NCBI RefSeq assembly: GCF_024171565.1
Contig: NZ_JALJZZ010000006.1
Location: forward strand, 62,001 to 126,000
DNA from: Okibacterium sp. HSC-33S16
GTDB taxonomy: Bacteria; Actinomycetota; Actinomycetes; Actinomycetales; Microbacteriaceae
Length of the DNA stretch: 64,000 nucleotides
Direction: 5' to 3'
This document shows, piece by piece, positions 47,173 through 57,408 of the stretch. How positions within the stretch are numbered: position 1 is the stretch's first letter; each line of letters opens with the position of its first letter. The position numbers and the translations under genes were made by a program. The notes beneath the pieces were generated by a model. The model was not told the DNA's origin. It did not search any database and saw only the letters and a list, made by a program, of their open reading frames with translations.

Positions 47173-47559
47173 CTAAAGCAGCGCTTTGGCCTTGAGAGCA
47201 GCAAACTCCTCGGGGGTGATCGATCCGGCAGCCAACAGTGACTGGGCTGTGGCGATGTGATTTGAAGGACTGGCCAGCGGGATGATGCGCGGACGATAGT
47301 CGTGGGGTTCGGAAACCGTCGCTTCGCCTCGAGGATTCCGGCCATTCATTCCGTTGCCCCGTACAACGAGGTAGGCGAGGACGGTGAGGAACGGCAGGAA
47401 CACCAGGCCAGCGACCCACACTGCTTTACTCCAGCCGTTCAGGGCCCGATCACCGAAAATATCCCCGAGCACCCTGATCAGAAGGAGGAGATAGGCGATC
47501 AGCAGATAGGCCCACACGAACCAAACGATGACGGCCCAGAAGGTGCTCCACCAGTTCAT
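47173..47559 (-). CDS. PLDc_N/SHOCT membrane protein, copy 1
   Basis: 128 residues. Two hydrophobic segments at the start (WWSTFWAVIVWFVWAYLLIAY and KAVWVAGLVFLPFLTVLAYLV) have the PLDc_N layout. A SHOCT tail follows, with TAQSLLAAGSITPEEFAALK near the C-terminus. SHOCT tails are small oligomerisation or sensing modules. Its paralogue lies at 52726-53109. Both carry the same upstream operator, so they probably respond together. ATG at 47559 is chosen because the longer frame lacks membrane character. Confidence 0.85.
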   Translation of the reverse strand: MNWWSTFWAVIVWFVWAYLLIAYLLLLIRVLGDIFGDRALNGWSKAVWVAGLVFLPFLTVLAYLVVRGNGMNGRNPRGEATVSEPHDYRPRIIPLASPSNHIATAQSLLAAGSITPEEFAALKAKALL

Positions 47560-47595: not shown

Positions 47596-47640
47596 AACAT
47601 AATCGAGCGCTTCCGCTGTGCGATCACCCACGGTGGATGA
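47596..47640 (-). promoter_or_regulatory. Regulon site A with promoter for SHOCT copy 1
   Basis: Read on the minus strand, TCATCC-ACCGT-GGGTGA (47640-47624) is followed after 22 bases by TATGTT (47601-47596), a good -10. The same layout occurs at four other promoters in this cluster. Confidence 0.68.
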
Positions 47641-47753
47641 CATTTTCGAACGGCGTCTCGAGCCGTGGACGATCGCGGGGGCCAGTGCTAGTTTGCCGAC
47701 AGGCCGGGGACCACCAATCGCACCGCTGACGATGCGCGCTTGGGGATGAAACG

Positions 47754-48986
47754 ATGAATCTACGCTTCTGGGGTCGTCAAGACCGGGCGGAGGATCCTCA
47801 GAAACGAGCCATGCGGGACGCTGAAGCCGGTTCCTCCTCACCGTCGCCCCTTCCGCGGGCGACTGTGGTCCTCCTCAGCCTCGGCGGCGCTTCAGCCACG
47901 ATTTTCGGACTCTGGGCGATACAGCCGGTGGCCGCGCCGGTGGCTCTTGCGCTCGTGCTGAGTATCTGTGCGCATCCCGTGCGTGGGGCCCTCGAACGGA
48001 TCCGAGTGCCTCGCGGTGTCGCCACCGTGCTTGCCATCCTTCTTGTCGTCGCGTTACTCGCCGGTTTCGTCGCATCCTTGTTGATTGCGCTGACCCAGTT
48101 CACTACCCTCCTCCCGCAATTCACGCCGCAAATGGAGCAGATAGGTCAGGACATCGTCGCCTGGCTCGCGAGCGTCGGGGTCGGAGTTGAGTCTGCCCAG
48201 ACCATCATTGCTGGATTCGACCCAGCCAAACTCCTTGACCTCGCGGCTGGCCTGCTCGGTGGGATCACCGGAATCGTGTTCTCGCTCGTCGTCATCATTA
48301 CTTTGGTGATGCTGATGGCCATGGACGCGACATATCTTCCGCCGCTCTTCTCGGAGCTTCACAAGCGGCGACCGACTCTGGTCTCCGCGATGAACGGATT
48401 CGCCGTCAGCGTTCGCCGATATATGGTCGCCGCAACCGGCCTCGGTGTGCTGCAGAGCACGATGAACTTCATCGCCTTAGCCCTGCTCGGAGTTCCGGCC
48501 CCATTCCTGTGGGCGCTTCTGTCATTCATCTGCAGTTACATCCCCAATGTCGGTTACTTTCTCGCGATCATCCCGCCCACCGTCTTTGGTCTGCTCGTCG
48601 GCGGTTGGCCAATAGCGATCGCCGTCATCCTGATCTACGGCATCATCAACATGATCGTGCAGTCCATCGTTCAGCCCCTCCTGGTGAGCAACGTTGTCGC
48701 ATTGAACCAAACCATTACATTTGTCTCGGTCCTGTTCTGGACACCCGTCCTCGGGCCGGTCGGTGCGGTGTTGGCCGTGCCATTGACGTTGCTGGTCCGC
48801 GCCCTTCTACTCGACGCCGATCCCGATGCCGCCTGGTGGCGACCGCTGACGGGCGACATCGACGCGGCGAAGAGCGTTTTGAGAGCGAAGGACGCCGACA
48901 ACAGACGAAAGCGGGCTGCGCGGAGAAGTGCAGTGCGGGGCGAGCGGGAAGCCGCGGTCGAGGGCGCGCGTTTGGCGGATGAATAA
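47754..48986 (+). CDS. AI-2E family transporter
   Basis: 410 residues with about seven to eight membrane segments, the AI-2E (PF01594) layout. Typical parts are ALVLSICAHPVRGALERIRVPRGVATVLAI, the periplasmic helical region around residues 110-165, and PFLWALLSFICSYIPNVGYFLAIIPP near 250, ending in FVSVLFWTPVLGPVGAVLAVPLT. Members are often proton- or ion-coupled exporters with uncertain cargo. The charged C-terminal 35 residues are cytoplasmic. ATG at 47754. It faces the LuxR gene end to end. Confidence 0.9.
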   Translation: MNLRFWGRQDRAEDPQKRAMRDAEAGSSSPSPLPRATVVLLSLGGASATIFGLWAIQPVAAPVALALVLSICAHPVRGALERIRVPRGVATVLAILLVVALLAGFVASLLIALTQFTTLLPQFTPQMEQIGQDIVAWLASVGVGVESAQTIIAGFDPAKLLDLAAGLLGGITGIVFSLVVIITLVMLMAMDATYLPPLFSELHKRRPTLVSAMNGFAVSVRRYMVAATGLGVLQSTMNFIALALLGVPAPFLWALLSFICSYIPNVGYFLAIIPPTVFGLLVGGWPIAIAVILIYGIINMIVQSIVQPLLVSNVVALNQTITFVSVLFWTPVLGPVGAVLAVPLTLLVRALLLDADPDAAWWRPLTGDIDAAKSVLRAKDADNRRKRAARRSAVRGEREAAVEGARLADE

Positions 48987-49000
48987 TGCTCTGGTTGGAG

Positions 49001-51460
49001 CTAGAGCAGTCCGACTTCGCGAGCGCGGTCGATGGCTCCATCGCGTGTCGTCGCACCCAGCTTGCGATAAATATGCGCCATATGCGTTTTTATGGTGTTT
49101 ACCGACACGTAGAAACGCCGCGCGAGTTCAACGTTGGTGAACCGAGTCGGGAAGTAGACGAGAAGTTCCAGTTCGCGCTCCGTCAGCGGTTCGGACAGAC
49201 CGAGAGCGGGCAACTGCGACGTCTCTTCACCTGCGCGGCTCCGGATCAGGTCACTGAATGCGGCCTGGGGTCCGGAGATCATGGAAAGCCGCTGCAAAAT
49301 GAGCGGACCAGCCTGAACGAACACCTCCACAAAACCGTGGATCTCAGCAACCTGCAGCGCGGCCGCAAGTTCTCGTAGGGCTTCCTCAGGCAACTCGTCG
49401 ACGGCTGCCAGGCGAGCCCTGAGAATGTGATTCTGGACGACCGACAGAGGTGTCGAGACGTGAACCAACTGTTGCCAGGTTTCCACGATCTCTCGCGCGG
49501 GACCGGTGTCGCCGAGGGTGATCGATGCTGCTGCTCGTTCAAAGAGCACTGTTGGAACGAGCTTGGGATCATCAGATACGAGCACTTCGGTATCGGTCCT
49601 GACAGTCTGTGGAGCGGCAGCCAAGGGATGATGCGTGCCGCGAGCATCGCTGGTGGTTGCGGGTGAGCTGTGAGCTGATTCTTCGCTTCCGGACGGTTCG
49701 GCACCCGGATCGGCCTCGGGTTCCAACGAGGTGAGGACGGACGCCAGATAGGCGTCTGCGATGGCGGGGTGGGCGAGCATCCCGGCATCCCGTGCTGTCT
49801 CTAAGGCGTCTCGCATGAGTTTGTCCGCGCGGGTCACGTTTCTGCTCCACGCTTCCACGAGAGACAGAGCGCTGAGTGCGCTTACTCGTTCGACGACATC
49901 TGACCCCGAAGCCACGAGGGCACGCGACAACCACTTCCGTGCCTCCGTCGTATTTCCGGCGAGGAAGAACGCACGACCCCCTGATACGAGTGCCTGGGCT
50001 AATTCCGGGGACGTTGCTCGGCGAACGTCTCCACGCTGCGCGAGGGCGCCAACTTTGCGACGGGCTTCATCGCTGGAGATATCCGGGCGCGCTCGCCATA
50101 ACACCTGCGCCGCGACGAATCCCCATCCCCGGCGCGGTGCCGCAGACGCAGTCACGTTTCGCTCTGGTTCCGCAGCGGGCGCTGGAAAAGCGGCAGATTC
50201 ATCTCCCCACGCATGCCGAACACCGGCGAAGAGCTCTTCATTTATTTGGGCGGTTCGCACCAGATTGCGAGCGGTGGGCACGGGCGAGTGAACCGGGGCC
50301 CCCACTCCAGTGGCCGCATCGTCAGCGGCGGACGCCAGCATGGTCTCCATCGCACCGTCGCGGGCTTGTGCTCTCAAGAGATAGTCGAGAGCCTTCTTCA
50401 CCCGGCTTCGACTCAGGTGCCAGTCGGCCGCTGCGGTAAGGATCTGGAGCTCGGCCGCGGGGTTTTCGGCGCGGAGCCGGGATCGAAGAAGTTCTGAGAA
50501 GAGATGGTGAAAGCGGAACCACTGGCGCTGGGCATCCAACGGGATAAGAAACATGCACTCCCGCTCCAACTCCTCAAGTGTTTGCTGGGCGTTGTGTGAA
50601 CCGACCGCGGCTTCAACGAGACCGGCACACATGTCATCGAGTACTGACATCTCCAACAACAGCTGTCTGCGGTCAGCAGGAAGGCCAGAAATCACTTCCT
50701 CGCCCAAGTAGTCGGCTACAAGCCGGTCGCTTCCGCTGAATTCGGCGATGAACGACTCAGCGTCCGGTTCGTTCCTCAGATGTAGCCCGGCGAGTTGTAA
50801 CCCCGCCGCCCACCCTTCGGTCCGGTCACACAGCTTGTGAACCTGTGAAGGCGTGAACGCGTGGCCAACGATGTTTTCGAGGAGTGCAGCTGACTCGGAT
50901 TCGTTGAACGCAAGTTGGGCCGGTCGAAGTTCGAGAAGTTCATCATTCAGGCGGTGGCGACTGAGCGCGATCGGTGGATCGACCCGAGACGCGATGACGA
51001 CATGAACGGTACGAGGCACACGCTCGATGAGCTTGCCCAGGTCAGCAACAAGAGCAACGTTTGTGAAGCGATGTACATCCTCGAGGAGAAGGACGGTTTC
51101 CGGGCCGCCCTCGAGAGCCGCTGCCAAGCCGGTGATCAGAGCCTGCCCAAGTCCCTCCCCGTCGCGGGAAATGGATCTTGTTGCTCGTGCGCTGGAAGGG
51201 TGAGAAAAGGTCAGGGCTGTGATGAGGCGACGTGTGAAGTGAGCCGGGTCGTCATCGGCCGAGTCGATGGAGAGATGGGTAAAGTTCAGGTCGCTGTGCG
51301 TCGCAATCCATTGCCGTAAGAGAGTCGTCTTACCGGCACCAGCAGGTGCAGCGACCAAGGTGAGACGCCGCCCCAATGCTCCATCAAGAGCAGCGAGAAG
51401 CGCTGGTCGCTCGACGAGAGGTTTTCCTGCAAGGGGCTGGCTGGAAGCGCCCATGGCCAC
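49001..51460 (-). CDS. MalT-like LuxR-family regulator
   Basis: 819 residues, a large STAND-type LuxR regulator. The P-loop is TLVAAPAGAGKTTLLRQW near residue 40, VLLLEDVHRF is the Walker B region, and a helical-repeat sensor core fills residues about 350-740. The C-terminal LuxR helix-turn-helix is LTERELELLVYFPTRFTNVELARRFYVSVNTIKTHMAHIYRKL. Such proteins oligomerise on ATP and inducer binding and activate promoters, mostly next to the -35. Five matching inverted repeats at that place in this cluster make it the best candidate activator. A second ATG at 51454 is an alternative start. Confidence 0.9.
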   Translation of the reverse strand: MAMGASSQPLAGKPLVERPALLAALDGALGRRLTLVAAPAGAGKTTLLRQWIATHSDLNFTHLSIDSADDDPAHFTRRLITALTFSHPSSARATRSISRDGEGLGQALITGLAAALEGGPETVLLLEDVHRFTNVALVADLGKLIERVPRTVHVVIASRVDPPIALSRHRLNDELLELRPAQLAFNESESAALLENIVGHAFTPSQVHKLCDRTEGWAAGLQLAGLHLRNEPDAESFIAEFSGSDRLVADYLGEEVISGLPADRRQLLLEMSVLDDMCAGLVEAAVGSHNAQQTLEELERECMFLIPLDAQRQWFRFHHLFSELLRSRLRAENPAAELQILTAAADWHLSRSRVKKALDYLLRAQARDGAMETMLASAADDAATGVGAPVHSPVPTARNLVRTAQINEELFAGVRHAWGDESAAFPAPAAEPERNVTASAAPRRGWGFVAAQVLWRARPDISSDEARRKVGALAQRGDVRRATSPELAQALVSGGRAFFLAGNTTEARKWLSRALVASGSDVVERVSALSALSLVEAWSRNVTRADKLMRDALETARDAGMLAHPAIADAYLASVLTSLEPEADPGAEPSGSEESAHSSPATTSDARGTHHPLAAAPQTVRTDTEVLVSDDPKLVPTVLFERAAASITLGDTGPAREIVETWQQLVHVSTPLSVVQNHILRARLAAVDELPEEALRELAAALQVAEIHGFVEVFVQAGPLILQRLSMISGPQAAFSDLIRSRAGEETSQLPALGLSEPLTERELELLVYFPTRFTNVELARRFYVSVNTIKTHMAHIYRKLGATTRDGAIDRAREVGLL

Positions 51461-51529
51461 TCCGTTCCACGGTCAGTGTGGCACATCTGACTTTGGTGGC
51501 CAAGGGGAGTGGTCATCTGAGGAAATCCT

Positions 51530-51574
51530 TCATCCTCCGCGGATGATGCTTCCAGTCAGAGTTGTACTCAGAAT
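51530..51574 (+). promoter_or_regulatory. Regulon site B with promoter for the 71-residue protein
   Basis: TCATCC-TCCGC-GGATGA (51530-51546), a perfect inverted repeat, is followed after 22 bases by CAGAAT (51569-51574). The gene starts 25 bases later at 51600. Confidence 0.68.
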
Positions 51575-51599
51575 GTGGATTGTGTGAGAGGACTCGGCC

Positions 51600-51815
51600 G
51601 TGACCAGCGAACCATTCGAAATCGTGATCAAGGGCACGTTGAGTGACCCGGTCGCGGAGCTCATCGACGGATTCCGGATTAGCAAGGTCGATCACGGCGA
51701 GACCCATTTAGTCGGAGCGCTGCCGGACCAGGCGAAGCTGCAGGGAATTCTGGCTCTCTTTGGGAATCTCAACATTGAACTGGTGTCAGTCAATCGAGCG
51801 ACGAGGAGAAAATGA
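51600..51815 (+). CDS. Small conserved-looking protein, ACT-like layout
   Basis: 71 residues. The order strand (FEIVIKGTL), helix (VAELIDGF), strand (RISKVDHGETHLVGAL), helix (QAKLQGILALFGNLN), strand (IELVSVNRA) resembles a small ferredoxin-like or ACT-type fold. It starts at GTG 51600 behind GAGAGGA. It has its own regulon operator and meets the channel gene end to end ten bases later. The function is unknown; a ligand-sensing or adaptor role would be a guess. Confidence 0.72.
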   Translation: MTSEPFEIVIKGTLSDPVAELIDGFRISKVDHGETHLVGALPDQAKLQGILALFGNLNIELVSVNRATRRK

Positions 51816-51824
51816 TGTTTGTGG

Positions 51825-52529
51825 TCAGCGACGCTGCGGTTGCCAACCCGATACAACTCGAGCGACCGCGATGACAAGAAAGAGCTGACCGGCGATCGCT
51901 TCGGCAATGGCGACGCTCTGGACGGCTGATCCACTCGGGACGAGATTTCCGTATCCCGTCGTCGTCAGTGTCGTGAATGAGAAGAAGAGTTGGCTGGTCA
52001 GCGAGTCGTCATTCGCGTTCTCGAAAAGGGGCGTGGCAGTCGTGAGACCGATCAGGTTATAGACAAAGGTGAAGAACATCCCGACCATCACGTAGGCAGC
52101 TATCGACGCAAGAAGAGTCTGGCCGTCGACAAGCACTTTCCTTCCCTGGTGAGCGATGATCGCGATCGGTGCGCCAAGATACGCCAACATGGATGCCGAC
52201 GAGAGCACGATATCGAGCACACGGCCCTCGAGCGCAGCCAGTTGAACGATACCGGCGGCGGTTCCGGTCACAGCGAGGACAACCCAGCCAACCTGACGCA
52301 CTCCCGCGTTGACGCGAGCCACCCACAGGGTCGCTGCGACGGTAGCGAGTTGGACCAGAAGAACCACGGCGCTCGGGTCTGGTGAGGTCTGAGCGGCGCA
52401 CATCAGGTACGAAACCGTGAGCAGTGTCAGGACAAGCCAGTAGCCGGATCGCCAACTCGAGGGATGCCGGCCGACCGGGTGGGCCGTCGATGCCAGAGAT
52501 TCGGCCTTCGTGCGGCGGGGCTTGGTCAT
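51825..52529 (-). CDS. Potassium-type ion channel
   Basis: 234 residues. About six hydrophobic segments end in a pore module: LLASIAAYVMVGMFFTFVYNLIGL, the selectivity filter TTLTTTGYGNLVPSG, and the final helix IAEAIAGQLFLVIAVARVVSGW. TTGYGN is the potassium-channel filter. No voltage-sensor arginine ladder or RCK domain is present, so gating is unknown. I chose ATG at 52529; a GTG at 52538 is also in frame but lies inside the ribosome binding site GGAGG. It carries regulon site E upstream. Confidence 0.87.
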   Translation of the reverse strand: MTKPRRTKAESLASTAHPVGRHPSSWRSGYWLVLTLLTVSYLMCAAQTSPDPSAVVLLVQLATVAATLWVARVNAGVRQVGWVVLAVTGTAAGIVQLAALEGRVLDIVLSSASMLAYLGAPIAIIAHQGRKVLVDGQTLLASIAAYVMVGMFFTFVYNLIGLTTATPLFENANDDSLTSQLFFSFTTLTTTGYGNLVPSGSAVQSVAIAEAIAGQLFLVIAVARVVSGWQPQRR

Positions 52530-52565
52530 TGCCTCCACCCTCTACGTCACTTCCAGATCCCCGGA

Positions 52566-52610
52566 ACGCTACGGCAATGGCTGACAAACGGCGTCATCCG
52601 CTCGGGGTGA
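52566..52610 (-). promoter_or_regulatory. Regulon site E with promoter for the ion channel
   Basis: On the minus strand TCACCC-CGAGC-GGATGA (52610-52594) is followed after 22 bases by TAGCGT (52571-52566). It is only 21 bases from site C, which points the other way. Confidence 0.66.
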
Positions 52611-52631
52611 CCGTGGGTCAGGCGAGAGCCT

Positions 52632-52676
52632 TCATCCTTCCCGGGTGATGCCCGGTCGGTGATGCCTCACTAGATT
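52632..52676 (+). promoter_or_regulatory. Regulon site C with promoter for SHOCT copy 2
   Basis: TCATCC-TTCCC-GGGTGA (52632-52648) is followed after 22 bases by TAGATT (52671-52676). The gene starts at 52726 behind GAAAGG. Confidence 0.68.
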
Positions 52677-52725
52677 CAGGCGATCGGCACATTGCCCGAT
52701 AACCGTCCGTGAAAGGTCGCCCGAA

Positions 52726-53109
52726 ATGAACTTCTGGGATTTCATCCTTTTCGTTTTCTGGAGCTATGTCTTCTTTTCGTACCTCATGGTTCTTTTCGGA
52801 ATCATTGGGGATATTTTCCGGGACACCAGTCTCAACGGCGGTCTCAAAGCTGTGTGGGTGATCTTCCTTGTGTTCGTGCCGTTCCTTACCGCACTCGTCT
52901 ATCTCATCGCCCGCGGCAAGGGCATGAGCGAGCGACAGCAAGCTGCCGTTCGACAGGCACGGTCACAGACCGACCAGTACATTCGATCGGTCGCAGGGAG
53001 CTCACCAGCCGAAGAGATCGCGAAAGCAAAGACGCTGCTTGATTCGGGGGCGATTAGCCAGGGTGAGTTCGACGGCTTGAAAGGCCAAGCGCTCAAGGTT
53101 GCGGCCTAA
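52726..53109 (+). CDS. PLDc_N/SHOCT membrane protein, copy 2
   Basis: 127 residues, paralogue of the gene at 47173-47559. Both share the order WDFIL..F..W, IIGDIFRDTSLNGGLKAVWVIFLVFVPFLTALVYLI (compare VLGDIFGDRALNGWSKAVWV) and the SHOCT tail AKTLLDSGAISQGEFDGLK. Its loop between membrane and SHOCT parts is longer in glutamine and arginine. The 3' end overlaps the HerA-like gene tail to tail by 17 bases. GAAAGG precedes ATG 52726. Confidence 0.87.
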   Translation: MNFWDFILFVFWSYVFFSYLMVLFGIIGDIFRDTSLNGGLKAVWVIFLVFVPFLTALVYLIARGKGMSERQQAAVRQARSQTDQYIRSVAGSSPAEEIAKAKTLLDSGAISQGEFDGLKGQALKVAA

Positions 53110-54553
53110 GACGCACCGGGACGCGGACATCCGCGCCGCCCTCCTCCAGCAACCGCTCGCCCATCTTCACCATCGTCGGGGTCGCCGTGAAGCCGCCAGC
53201 GAACAACGCTTCACCCTGCCGGAACTGCGACGCACGCGTGAGCATGTTGCCCGGCACAAAACCGAAGATTGTGCCCAGCTCGTCGAGATCAACGGGTGAC
53301 GTCATCTTCATCAGCGCAAGGTTGTCGCACTGCGAGATGATGCTCGGATCGATTCGGGACGGGCGCTGTGTGGAGAGCAAAAGCCACAGTCCGAACTTGC
53401 GGCCCTCTGCCGCGATCTGGATAAGCCGTTCTCGAACGGCGTCATGCAGGGGACTGTGCTGGTCAGGTGAACCCAGGTTGTGCGCTTCATCAATCACGAT
53501 GAGCAGCGGCCGGCGTCGTTCCCGGCGCGCCCAGAGGTCGTCGAGAACAGCCATGGCGACAACGAGTGGCTCGTCGGGTGTATCAAATCCACCGAGGTCG
53601 AGCACCGTTGCGTCTGGTCGTGTGTCCAGAATGTCCGTCACCGCTTCGAACTCCCGCGCCCAGACGGCCCAGTCGACGAGTCCCAGGTTTTCGATGCGGG
53701 ACGCGAGCGCGAGAGCAGCTGCTGTTCCGCGCTGGCGAAGCGTTGGAACGACCTCTTCTCCTGTCACCGAACCTACGACTTCCTGGAGATGGATGAGCTC
53801 GTTGTATTCGTCGCGGTCGGTCACCGGATCGAGGTGCATGACTGCAGCTTTCGCTCGAAGCGGGAGATCAACAAACCTGACCCGGAGAGAGTCGGGATCG
53901 GGCGATGCGGGGCGAAGAATTCGGATGTTACGGCTCAAAAGTGAGCGTATGGCATCCGTTTCTCTCGTCTCTTTCGCTTCCCGAAGCCGAGTGAAGTCAC
54001 CATTGGGGTCGAAAATCACCATCGGAAGCGATGTGTGCAAGAGCAGTTGTTCAAGCACGACTCCGAGAGCGTATGTCTTGCCCGAGCCGCTCTGGCCGCA
54101 CCAAAAGGTGTGGCGATTGAACCGATGGGGAAGCAGGTGTGCAGGCACGTCAGTTGATGAAAGGGAGGTTCCGATGTCAAGAAGGTCACCACTTCCGCTG
54201 TACAGGGAATTGATCTCGACGGGCTCGGCGGGCTGGATCTGCGCAGAGATAAACGGGAGTGAGCGGCGCGAATCGAGGGTTCTGGTGTCCTCTGAGATGA
54301 GCCCCAGAATCCTCCCCGTACCGTGCATGTCGCCGCCCATGGAGAAGGTGACGTCCTCGACTTGGCCGAGTTCTCGCATCCCGCCCTCGAGACGCACGGT
54401 GACGAAGCCGCCCGGCTCGAAGAACGACCGAAGTGGCCCGGTGAAGTGAAAGTATCGGCCGTCGAGTGAGACCGCAGTGGTGTCGCGAGGGACAAGCTCA
54501 GGGTCGTACATGGCTGGGACCAGAGTCGCTTGCGAGTGCTTCAGGCGTGGCAT
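53093..54553 (-). CDS. HerA-like (DUF87) ATP-binding protein
   Basis: 486 residues counting from ATG 54553; ATG 54511 (residue 15) is the alternative and would reduce the overlap with the ClC-type gene. An N-terminal HAS-barrel (to about 110) precedes the ATPase: Walker A FWCGQSGSGKTYAL (153-160) and Walker B LLIVIDEAHNLGS. LLLSTQRPSRIDPSIISQCDNLALMKM is the typical motif-III and arginine-finger region of HerA. Related hexamers translocate DNA with NurA, but no NurA, SIR2 or DUF4297 partner is beside it. It overlaps the end of the ClC-type gene, so they are cotranscribed. Confidence 0.87.
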   Translation of the reverse strand: MPRLKHSQATLVPAMYDPELVPRDTTAVSLDGRYFHFTGPLRSFFEPGGFVTVRLEGGMRELGQVEDVTFSMGGDMHGTGRILGLISEDTRTLDSRRSLPFISAQIQPAEPVEINSLYSGSGDLLDIGTSLSSTDVPAHLLPHRFNRHTFWCGQSGSGKTYALGVVLEQLLLHTSLPMVIFDPNGDFTRLREAKETRETDAIRSLLSRNIRILRPASPDPDSLRVRFVDLPLRAKAAVMHLDPVTDRDEYNELIHLQEVVGSVTGEEVVPTLRQRGTAAALALASRIENLGLVDWAVWAREFEAVTDILDTRPDATVLDLGGFDTPDEPLVVAMAVLDDLWARRERRRPLLIVIDEAHNLGSPDQHSPLHDAVRERLIQIAAEGRKFGLWLLLSTQRPSRIDPSIISQCDNLALMKMTSPVDLDELGTIFGFVPGNMLTRASQFRQGEALFAGGFTATPTMVKMGERLLEEGGADVRVPVRLRPQP

Positions 54554-55829
54554 GGACGATCATTTCTGGTCCGCGTGACACGAGCAGCCACGTCGGCAAG
54601 ACAGCAATGCACAAGACGGGGAGGACCGTAATCCCGCCGGTGACCGCGACAGCGATAAAGAGGGCGATCCATCCGTCACGGGAGATCGCCAGGACCATCC
54701 CGAGCACCCCGCTTGCGGTCGCAACGGCGAGCGGGATCGAAGGGATCAACGCATTCGCGAGGATGCCAATCGCGACCCCGATGAAGACGGCCGGGAAAAT
54801 GCGCCCCCCACGAAAACCGGCGGCTGCGCTCACAAGCAGGGCAAGGACCTTCACTGCCACGATCACGATGAGGGTGGAAGCCGCGTAGTCGTCGCGGTGA
54901 GCGATCAGGTCGCCCATTTGACCGAGCCCCTTGAAGAGCGTGATGGGGCCGCCGACCGCTCCGAGGATTCCCAGGATGACGCCGCCAAGCGTGATGTACA
55001 GCGCGGGATTCCTGAGCAGGCGAAAGGCCCGGTGAAGGCGCGGAAAAACGGCGGCGGCGGTGAGCCCCAGAGCCGCGGAGATCACTGCGATGAGCGCGGC
55101 ACTCAGGAGATCGACCGGTGCAACGGTTTCATAAGCGGGGAGGTCGAGGGTGAATTGTGGATTTGCGAGCAGGGACATCATCACCGCGCCGGCCCCGGCG
55201 GACAGCAGTGGGAGGAAGAGTTGGTCCCACAGCGCCCCCTCCCGGAACAGTGAGCCGACCAGGCCGGTGAAGACCAAAGCGGCCGCCACTGGAGTGCCGA
55301 ACAGCGCCCCGATCGTTCCTGCGGCCGTGACCACAACGACAAGTTCGACCGGAATGCTCGGCCACAGCCAGCGAGAAAGGGCCACCATCAGTCCGGCGTT
55401 GATGCCGATGATCGCCGCCTCGGGACCCAGGCTCACACCGCCGCCCAAGGCCAAGACGGCAACGATCGTCAGGGAGGGCAAGGTCTGCAGAGGAAGCGGA
55501 GGAGCGATGAGGTGCACCGTCGCTGAGTCCTGTCCGCCGTGCCCCGGCATCAGCCAGACGATGAGGCCCACAACGAGCCCGACCGCGCTCAATACTCCGA
55601 AGATCCACCATCGCGAGTCCGGATCGATGCCGAGAGCGTCGGGAAGAGCTGACCACAGCCCGTGTTCGAGTGCATGCGCGATCGCTTCAACGGCATAGAG
55701 CAGGATCGCTGACAGTGCGCCGACCATGATGGTGGGAATCGACAGTGCCAGAAGCTTCTGCACGGTCGACCGGGAAGGCCTGTCTCCCTCGACATCCGCG
55801 AGGGTGTCAGTTCCCGTGAGCTCAGCCAT
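54498..55829 (-). CDS. ClC-type chloride/ion channel family protein
   Basis: 443 residues with 10 or more hydrophobic segments. GGGVSLGPEAAIIGINAGL corresponds to the second ion-binding loop of ClC proteins and AAAGFRGGRIFPAVFIGVAIG to the third (GxFxP). The first loop, GSGIP in most members, is replaced by LPGHGGQDSA, and the usual GxEGP is LGPEA, so this is an atypical branch similar in style to YfeO-like proteins. Whether it is a channel or a proton-coupled exchanger cannot be told. It lies 205 bases from the divergent large membrane protein. Confidence 0.85.
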   Translation of the reverse strand: MAELTGTDTLADVEGDRPSRSTVQKLLALSIPTIMVGALSAILLYAVEAIAHALEHGLWSALPDALGIDPDSRWWIFGVLSAVGLVVGLIVWLMPGHGGQDSATVHLIAPPLPLQTLPSLTIVAVLALGGGVSLGPEAAIIGINAGLMVALSRWLWPSIPVELVVVVTAAGTIGALFGTPVAAALVFTGLVGSLFREGALWDQLFLPLLSAGAGAVMMSLLANPQFTLDLPAYETVAPVDLLSAALIAVISAALGLTAAAVFPRLHRAFRLLRNPALYITLGGVILGILGAVGGPITLFKGLGQMGDLIAHRDDYAASTLIVIVAVKVLALLVSAAAGFRGGRIFPAVFIGVAIGILANALIPSIPLAVATASGVLGMVLAISRDGWIALFIAVAVTGGITVLPVLCIAVLPTWLLVSRGPEMIVHATPEALASDSGPSHVRP

Positions 55830-55953
55830 GAGACCACCCTCCGGCGTGAGCCCGTGCCCTGCGGGTGTTCATCGCCACTTTGCGTTCGAGATCGTCGGTG
55901 TTCAGCGACAGAGTATCGCGGCGGCCGAGCCCGTAGCGAGGGATCACCAGATC

Positions 55954-55999
55954 TCATGCTCGGCGGGTGATCTGCGCTGGACGTGCGTAGAGGCAGAGT
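55954..55999 (+). promoter_or_regulatory. Regulon site D with promoter for the large membrane protein
   Basis: TCATGC-TCGGC-GGGTGA (55954-55970), one mismatch from the consensus, is followed after 23 bases by CAGAGT (55994-55999). The gene starts at 56035 behind GAAGGA. Confidence 0.58.
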
Positions 56000-56034
56000 G
56001 GCAGTCGACCCAGCATTGTGCGACGAAGGAAATG

Positions 56035-57408
56035 ATGACGGATCTGGCCAGTGTCGAACTGCTTCGGCGGATTGAAGAACTTGAAGCTGAGAACTTCGCG
56101 CTTCGGGAGCACGAGAATGCGGGTCAGGCTGAATCCGATCCGACATCAGCACCGCGCACAACTCGAAGCTGGGCATGGACCGTTCTTGCAACGCTTCTCA
56201 TCGTCCTGGGCGCGCTGCTCGCTCCAGTTGCGCTCGTTGCCTCATGGTCGAAGACGGTCCTCACCGACACCGATCGTTTTGTGGCTACCTATGCGCCGCT
56301 CTCCGAGAGCCCGCGCATTCGCGCATTCGTCACCGATCAGACTCTTCTTGTCATCAACGAGCAGGTCGACATTCCGCAGATCACCTCGGAGGTGATCGAC
56401 GGCATCACCGAGCTCGGTACGGGTCCTCGTGCGACCGAAGCGCTGGAGCTTCTCAAGGGCCCGGCAGCGTCAGGCGTCCAATCGCTGATTGAGAATGGCG
56501 TCACGAGCTTCGTCGAGTCTGAGGCGTTTTCAAATGTCTGGGCGTCGGCACTGCGGATCAGTCATACCCAATTGATCAGAGCGATGGGGGAGAATCCGGA
56601 TGCTGCGGTGCAGCTGGGCGACGATGGTTCTGTTGGCATCCAACTCGGCCCGGTCATCGAAGCGGTCAAGTCCGCACTGATCGAGCAGGGCATCGACCTT
56701 GCGAACCAGATCCCTGTGGTTGACCGCACGATCATCATCGCCCAATCGGACGCACTCGCCTCGGTGCAGCTCATCTACGGTATGACCGTCGCAGCGGGAT
56801 CGTGGCTGCCGTGGGTGGCCATCCTCCTTCTCGCCGCTGGCGTGCTGGTGGCGCGCCGACGCGCAGTGGCTCTGATCTGGGCAGCGGTCGCTCTTGCACT
56901 GTCAATGATTCTGTCGCTCGCGGGATTCGCCATTGGCAATGTCGCCCTGACCTCCGCTCTCAGCCCCGCGGTGTTGCCCTCCGGGGTAACCGGGCTCCTC
57001 TACGAGACTGTTGCGGGTGATATGCGAACAACGGCCGTTGCTGTGATGGTGCTCGCTCTTGTTGTCGCACTTGTGGCGTGGCTCGCCGGACCATTCGATC
57101 TTCCGCGTCGTCTGCGGGCGTTTGCTACTGAAGCGGCCGGGGGGTTGCGCGGGGCGGCCGAGCGCAGGGGCATCACGACCGGCCGTGTGGGTGTGTGGAT
57201 CTACACGAGACGGATGCTCCTGCGTGCGGCCGTTGCCATCGCCGCCGCCGGGATCGTGCTGTTTGTGCGGCCACTGACCGTCGGAGTGACGCTCTGGACC
57301 CTGGTGCTTTCCGCCGTTGCCTTGGCCATCCTCGAACTCGCCCAGCGTCCTGTCATCACCGTGCCGGCAACAGTGAACGAGAGTATTCCTATCGTCGACG
57401 TCGAGTGA
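56035..57408 (+). CDS. Large membrane protein of unknown function
   Basis: 457 residues. A short coiled coil (VELLRRIEELEAENFALREH) comes first, then a membrane segment near 45-70 (AWTVLATLLIVLGALLAPVAL), an external domain of about 190 residues with alternating helices, and five or six more membrane segments from residue 255 on. An arginine-rich cytoplasmic loop (FATEAAGGLRGAAERRGITT) lies between the last two groups. No family is recognised with certainty. GAAGGA suits ATG 56035 better than the ATG at 56032. It carries regulon site D. Confidence 0.78.
   Translation: MTDLASVELLRRIEELEAENFALREHENAGQAESDPTSAPRTTRSWAWTVLATLLIVLGALLAPVALVASWSKTVLTDTDRFVATYAPLSESPRIRAFVTDQTLLVINEQVDIPQITSEVIDGITELGTGPRATEALELLKGPAASGVQSLIENGVTSFVESEAFSNVWASALRISHTQLIRAMGENPDAAVQLGDDGSVGIQLGPVIEAVKSALIEQGIDLANQIPVVDRTIIIAQSDALASVQLIYGMTVAAGSWLPWVAILLLAAGVLVARRRAVALIWAAVALALSMILSLAGFAIGNVALTSALSPAVLPSGVTGLLYETVAGDMRTTAVAVMVLALVVALVAWLAGPFDLPRRLRAFATEAAGGLRGAAERRGITTGRVGVWIYTRRMLLRAAVAIAAAGIVLFVRPLTVGVTLWTLVLSAVALAILELAQRPVITVPATVNESIPIVDVE

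Follow-up and report, generated by a model that had tools for sequence, protein, structure and literature searches.

Which protein acts on a 17-bp palindrome that recurs in a membrane-protein cluster of Okibacterium sp. HSC-33S16, and what does the cluster do for the cell? In the 64,000-nucleotide stretch that we analysed (contig NZ_JALJZZ010000006.1, positions 62,001 to 126,000; hereafter the window), the palindrome TCATCC-N5-GGRTGA is found in five copies within 8.4 kb, one of them with a mismatch, and each copy is aimed at a gene. The arrangement probably represents a compact MalT-type regulon, in which the MalT-type LuxR regulator (LAL) encoded at 49001-51460 would activate five promoters through the 17-bp sites as a class II activator. 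This regulon is of the same kind as the MalT (ACSP50_3915) regulon of Actinoplanes. New here are its occurrence in Microbacteriaceae, Micrococcaceae and Acidimicrobiaceae, its compact form and its ion-transport targets.

Site 1 (TCATCCACCGTGGGTGA, 47624-47640, minus strand) lies in the promoter of a SHOCT/PLDc_N gene, 22 nt from the -10-like hexamer TATGTT (47596-47601, minus). Site 2 (TCATCCTCCGCGGATGA, 51530-51546, plus strand) precedes the gene of a 71-amino-acid protein, with CAGAAT at 51569-51574 (plus, gap 22). The ion-channel gene has site 3 (TCACCCCGAGCGGATGA, 52594-52610, minus; TAGCGT at 52566-52571, minus, gap 22), and a second PLDc_N gene has site 4 (TCATCCTTCCCGGGTGA, 52632-52648, plus; TAGATT at 52671-52676, plus, gap 22). 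Site 5 (TCATGCTCGGCGGGTGA, 55954-55970, plus) stands in the promoter of a large membrane protein gene, 23 nt from CAGAGT (55994-55999, plus), and its half TCATGC contains the one mismatch. The five sites with their coordinates, strands, hexamers, gaps and single mismatch had been reported in a first-pass annotation of this DNA, and all were found as described. Compared to TCATCC-N5-GGATGA, a single site is exact, three are off by one base and site 5 is off by two. From the layout, the 22-23 nt gap would put the 3' end of the site about 34-35 nt before the transcription start.

A search of the whole genome (3.23 Mb) with TCAYSCN5GSRTGA gave seven places, five of them in this cluster, as compared to three for the reversed pattern. 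The Poisson probability of five matches in 8.4 kb is 2e-13 to 2e-11, a post hoc figure because the pattern was derived from these same sites. The two remaining matches, which overlap coding sequence and lack a -10-like hexamer at a distance of 22-23 nt, were dropped as regulon sites on both grounds. When up to two mismatches were allowed, 19 matches were found in the window versus 11.9 +/- 4.3 in shuffled sequence; 7 of 100 shuffles reached 19, which is not significant. The strength of the signal resides in the near-exact matches, not in the two-mismatch form.

The LAL most likely binds TCAYCC-N5-GGRTGA through two paired GerE domains spaced by about one helical turn. The predicted site spans about -51 to -35, is centred near -43 and would replace the -35 element, and the LAL would activate RNA polymerase from a class II position. 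We propose the class II assignment because the centre lies near -43, a -35 element is lacking and the gap of 22-23 nt is rigid. The predicted outputs are two PLDc_N/SHOCT membrane proteins, an Ion_trans_2 channel, a large membrane protein and the 71-amino-acid protein.

The pattern recurs in other genomes with the same spacing. A search for TCATCCN5GGRTGA-N22-YANNNT in 99 relatives returned 16 matches from 10 of them, with 4 in the window's own genome (control 0). With TCAYCC and a -10 hexamer, 27 of 199 family genomes contain 52 matches, of which 5 belong to the own genome and 47 lie outside it (control 1). Across the phylum, the TANNNT form gave 21 matches in 11 of 296 genomes, 3 of them in the own genome (control 4). 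All of these searches fix the distance between site and hexamer; the gap was left free in ten loci fetched by their regulator. In that test 29 sites were read both ways (58 readings). TANNNT followed 11 of these readings at gap 22 and 5 at gap 23; the other 58 gaps averaged 0.16. The spacer was N5 in all 29 sites of these loci (0 at N0-4 and N6-11) and in 19 sites of nine family regions (1 at N2, 1 at N3); between 44 and 60 kb of the window the counts were 4 at N5 and 1 at N7, and 70 other regulator loci yielded 3 sites at N5 and 0-4 for the other lengths. The downstream half can be extended to GGRTGA-Y-G: of 42 oriented sites, 39 have the pyrimidine and 34 the G. With strict TANNNT, 2 of 101 Micromonosporaceae genomes match (control 0). 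The looser YANNNT finds 40 of 67 genomes of the Actinoplanes genus, to which Actinoplanes aureus (G537) belongs (control 1), because CAGGCT and CACGCT are common hexamers there. These two hexamers are frequent at the same distance in G693, G678, G661 and G537, with TA...T elsewhere. Further afield, the distant genome G467 has two near-identical motif promoters with TAATTT on two contigs (L127, L135), and an uncultured Chloroflexi contig (L208, position 3112) has a site with TATGCT at gap 22 near an LAL gene.

The individual promoters are also conserved. In matched intergenic regions from the window, G002 (of the same genus), G005, G236 and Arthrobacter sp. GMC3, the 17-mer is kept, as is a hexamer at a distance of 22-23 nt, and the bases between them have diverged. 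The cluster is present in G002, with no ClC match in its cluster region (L096). Site 1 is followed by TAGGTT at gap 23 in G002 and by TATGTT at gap 22 in G005, and site 3 by TAGCAT at gap 23 in G002. G002 and Arthrobacter sp. GMC3 both have the site 4 hexamer TAGATT (at gap 23 in the latter), and three genomes, G002 and G005 among them, share the TCATGC variant of site 5. For the AI-2E gene itself, L083 and L086 have an exact site followed by TA...T, and L090 has such a site with one mismatch. A scan of the genome and its relatives with the 17-bp pattern and gap, as the first-pass annotation had advised, has turned out in favor of the sites. In Mycetocola miduiensis (L100, 8850-9420), no regulator lies between the 71-amino-acid and SHOCT genes, and both sites are kept, one with a mismatch. 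As this species (G005) is assigned to the genus of the window, the window probably comes from a Mycetocola as GTDB defines the genus.

The sites are linked to one clade of regulators. Among at least 80 loci fetched by the regulator alone, the best 10 all have sites (29 in 197 kb). These are from Arthrobacter sp. GMC3, five Agromyces, two Microbacterium and two Acidimicrobiaceae metagenome-assembled genomes; they are not independent because five are Agromyces, and L161 among them has a weak E-value of 4e-23. In the remaining 70 loci, which differ in base composition because they are largely from other phyla, 2 have sites (3 in 1,121 kb), one adjoining a sister of the clade. When whole genomes were compared, pattern matches were found in 9 of 9 genomes with a regulator match of E < 1e-100 versus 18 of 190 others (Fisher p 4e-9), the cut having been chosen after the gap between 1e-102 and 2e-68 was seen. 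The 52 family matches split into 26 in the 9 strong-regulator genomes and 26 in the other 190; some regulators may be missed because only 5 first-look candidates were scored per genome. Divergent regulators have an exact site in 4 of 18 loci (G209, G030, G056, G171).

A FastTree phylogeny of 117 rows, of which 28 are site-linked, supports this linkage. The site label (a site within 3 kb, which varies with flank length) needs 9 changes on the tree compared to a shuffled mean of 25, and none of 500 shuffles was as low. A 21-row clade that includes the window regulator contains 19 site-linked rows; L159, one of the ten loci named above, has no regulator row. In a second, midpoint-rooted FastTree of 119 rows, the window regulator falls on a 33-row side (support 74) with 24 of the 27 site-linked rows, all 6 Actinoplanes LAL rows, taken from three genomes, and 3 siteless rows. 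This tree omits L144_3 and L283_1372, which are identical over their shared stretch and carry opposite labels, as well as L218_17180 and L277_1462. The sequences show that the sites stand at a fixed distance from the hexamer, that they are conserved and that they go with the regulator clade; binding and activation by the regulator, like the signal and function, are what we infer. The linkage favors a single activator of class II geometry and the MalT-like LuxR protein at 49001-51460 as its likely identity, both of which the first-pass annotation had suggested, with a caveat for Mycetocola miduiensis G005 that is taken up below.

In the relatives, correctly gapped sites precede PLDc_N/SHOCT, AI-2E, 71-amino-acid and channel genes. 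They also precede genes for ClC (G164), glutamate decarboxylase (G236, G145, G032, G164) and aquaporin (G145 by Pfam, G032 by likeness). Other site-preceded genes encode DUF6325, DUF7144, DUF1269, DUF1622, YrhK, sulfatases, MFS proteins and PLD-family enzymes, and many further site-linked genes are of mixed or unknown function; for some of these targets the site is mismatched or the hexamer weak. We counted exact sites within 300 nt upstream, in either direction, in 19 regulator loci other than the window, with a home-made gene caller that missed the window's own regulator. Such a site was found for 14 of 16 PLDc_N, 12 of 16 DUF6325 and 3 of 3 AI-2E genes, as compared to 49 of 336 called genes overall, targets included. 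The counts were 9 of 16 for the 71-amino-acid gene, 11 of 17 for the regulator, 5 of 9 for sulfatase and 4 of 6 for DUF7144, and 1 of 2, 1 of 1, 1 of 1 and 1 of 5 for PLD-family, DUF1269, DUF1622 and SfLAP genes, respectively. No exact site was found upstream of HerA (0 of 3) or GH15 (0 of 1).

In the window, the SHOCT/PLDc_N gene at 47173-47559 (minus strand) encodes a membrane protein of 128 amino acids, with the start set by inspection. Its longer open reading frame of 222 amino acids scores 22.4 bits for SHOCT and 22.2 for PLDc_N, both below the Pfam cut-offs, and the protein is 43% identical to its paralogue at 52726-53109 (plus; PLDc_N, 127 amino acids, 27.6 bits, above the cut-off). Divergent from the SHOCT gene is an AI-2E family transporter gene (47754-48986, plus), for which the window offers no correctly spaced site. 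The proposed activator (49001-51460, minus, 819 amino acids) matches GerE at 36.2 bits, and its AAA and MalT-TPR matches are below their cut-offs. The K+-type Ion_trans_2 channel (51825-52529, minus, 234 amino acids) scores 39.1 bits on a 237-amino-acid open reading frame, and the large membrane protein (56032-57408, plus, 458 amino acids, start by inspection) has no Pfam match. Two further genes of the cluster encode a HerA-like/DUF87 ATPase (53093-54553, minus) and a ClC-family channel or transporter (54498-55829, minus). The siteless HerA-like ATPase stays with the cluster in G002, G005 (where the match is in three pieces), G236 and Arthrobacter sp. GMC3.

The gene of the 71-amino-acid protein (51600-51815, plus) is head to head with the regulator gene. 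The two lie close together in 14 aligned loci, of which 11 have them head to head and 3 tail to tail, and the hexamers of its promoters in the window and relatives are weak (CAGAAT, CACACT, GATGAT, GAGGAT). A Pfam scan of the protein gave no match. Its structural model has a small beta-alpha-beta-beta-alpha-beta fold of fair confidence (pLDDT 86, pTM 0.74), and a fold search with it returned nothing at E <= 0.001 and only weak ferredoxin- or ACT-like matches. We may speculate that the protein is a ligand-sensing or feedback partner of the regulator.

Several observations weigh against one LAL acting at all of these promoters. Three of the 27 site-linked rows lie outside the 33-row side of the second tree. 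Mycetocola miduiensis G005 has 5 pattern matches, and its one regulator-profile match (E 2e-131) has no site nearby and groups with siteless regulators; this LAL is identical to that of L178, whose genome G541 repeats 4 of the G005 match places. No exact site occurs in 19.9 kb around the G131 regulator, and no site-linked regulator was found in G103, G107, G138, G164, G183 and G220, which carry matches. The window regulator is 31-34% identical to the paired Actinoplanes regulators, over the ATPase part. As for the targets, the HerA and ClC genes of the window lack a correctly spaced site, exact upstream sites in the relatives were counted for 0 of 4 large membrane protein, 0 of 8 MFS, 0 of 3 aquaporin and 1 of 2 channel genes, and for two of the three AI-2E genes the exact site that was counted faces the other way (L096, L090). 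Of 41 glutamate decarboxylase loci over the cut-off, 30 were examined and 3 of these have a site, in addition to G032, which rules out a site before this gene as a general rule.

Could a different, unlinked regulator bind the sites, the linked LAL being merely one of its targets? G005 and the other genomes with sites and no site-linked regulator would fit this, as would the exact site upstream of 11 of the 17 regulator genes. We consider it unlikely, since sites and LAL clade co-occur across families and classes, and deletion and overexpression implicate the LAL in Actinoplanes (PMC7567727). Chance palindromes in a GC-rich genome would agree with the insignificant two-mismatch count in the window, but this reading is practically without probability and was rejected: the genome-wide clustering, family-wide matches, regulator linkage, gap peak, promoter conservation and N5-only spacer all contradict it. 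A NarL-type response regulator such as BldM (Streptomyces box 5'-TCACcCgnncGgGTGA-3') might occupy the sites instead. BldM also has a GerE-type domain. Its half-site TCACCC/GGGTGA is identical (PMC4125116). However, its group I box is a 16-bp palindrome with a 4-base spacer, and the count of N4 in the ten regulator loci is 0 against 29 for N5; the box was rejected on this ground. The sites also concentrate around LAL genes, and binding by such a response regulator appears very improbable to us. The MalT-type LAL at 49001-51460 is retained as the probable activator.

The first-pass annotation had proposed a stress-responsive membrane or ion-homeostasis module. The module is borne out in part by the K+-type channel, ClC, AI-2E and PLDc_N/SHOCT proteins and by the glutamate decarboxylase and aquaporin of relatives; the term stress-responsive stays a supposition. 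The ion-transport targets, together with an occasional glutamate decarboxylase (none over the cut-off in the window's own genome), hint at pH or ion stress. From the gene content of relatives, homeostasis under pH, ion or envelope stress is tentatively the most likely job. A carbon- or growth-phase-dependent program of the maltose type, as in Actinoplanes, is possible if somewhat doubtful. There, the cluster genes rise on maltose compared to glucose and require MalT (PMC7567727), and the window regulator has the MalT architecture. Moreover, ten motif regions from four genomes of the Actinoplanes genus have no match (E <= 1e-5) to glutamate decarboxylase, ClC or aquaporin, which also weighs against the stress role; we lowered our estimate for that role slightly because the acid-type genes searched for are missing from these regions. 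On the other hand, even in Actinoplanes the genes of maltose metabolism are unaffected according to the parts of that report on the cluster (PMC7567727), and a Pfam scan of 30 site-linked proteins revealed no maltose gene and one GH15/trehalase-like protein. A broader proposal is that one MalT-type activator clade and its 17-bp box form a regulon across distant actinobacteria whose real job is acid, ion and envelope homeostasis and not maltose use. We regard it as rather unlikely in this full form, and its estimate was likewise reduced because of the Actinoplanes regions. If it is true, glutamate decarboxylase, ClC, aquaporin and the channels of some lineages and the Actinoplanes arginine deiminase operon would be alternative acid-resistance outputs of one circuit, and the 71-amino-acid ACT/ferredoxin-like protein a possible feedback partner of the regulator. 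Stress of pH or ions is in any case a concrete alternative to the maltose reading.

Among known systems, BldM group I promoters of Streptomyces share the half-site with the window and differ in being controlled by a response regulator and in having developmental targets (PMC4125116). E. coli MalT has the LAL architecture in common with the window regulator, and the core GGA(T/G)GA of its box near -35, as quoted in PMC7567727, resembles GGRTGA. Unlike that system, the window has no maltose genes among its five targets and its palindrome has a 5-base spacer. The regulator scores 298.3 bits against the NCBIfam MalT equivalog (PRK04841), whose cut-off of 537 is not reached; an E. coli-type maltose regulon was rejected.

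The closest counterpart is in Actinoplanes sp. SE50/110. The first-pass annotation was not aware of any earlier account, and one exists: the sections of the report on this cluster (Droste et al. 2020, PMC7567727) describe the same motif, a corresponding promoter position and a MalT-like activator there. In that account, 5'-TCATCC-5nt-GGATGA-3' overlaps the -35 region at 17 start sites of a 51-gene region, 34.4 +/- 1.0 nt before the start. Deletion of malT lowers 42 of the 51 genes and overexpression raises 39. The same sections place the motif within Micromonosporaceae only, and the function of the maltose-regulated large genomic region (MRLGR) is left unexplained by its authors. Among the papers found in open-licence PubMed Central, to the extent of their relevant text, no other describes the regulon or uses this name. 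Both regulons have the same motif, which in the window is predicted to overlap -35, and a MalT-type LuxR regulator gene inside the cluster. They differ in size, with 51 genes and 17 start sites in Actinoplanes against five promoters in 8.4 kb of the window, and in the arginine deiminase operon, which belongs to the Actinoplanes region. In the ten Actinoplanes-genus regions (same E-value limit), PLDc_N/SHOCT and the 71-amino-acid protein have no match. LALs are present in these regions, together with homologues of AI-2E (34-36%), the large membrane protein (27-31%) and the channel (36-54%, partly short pieces), as well as the relatives' targets DUF6325, DUF7144, DUF1269, class II glutamine amidotransferase and MFS. 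The signature of a 17-mer, 22-23 nt and TANNNT can serve to find targets of a little-studied regulator clade, and the present analysis links the puzzling Actinoplanes regulon to small clusters in other actinobacteria with few targets that can be tested singly.

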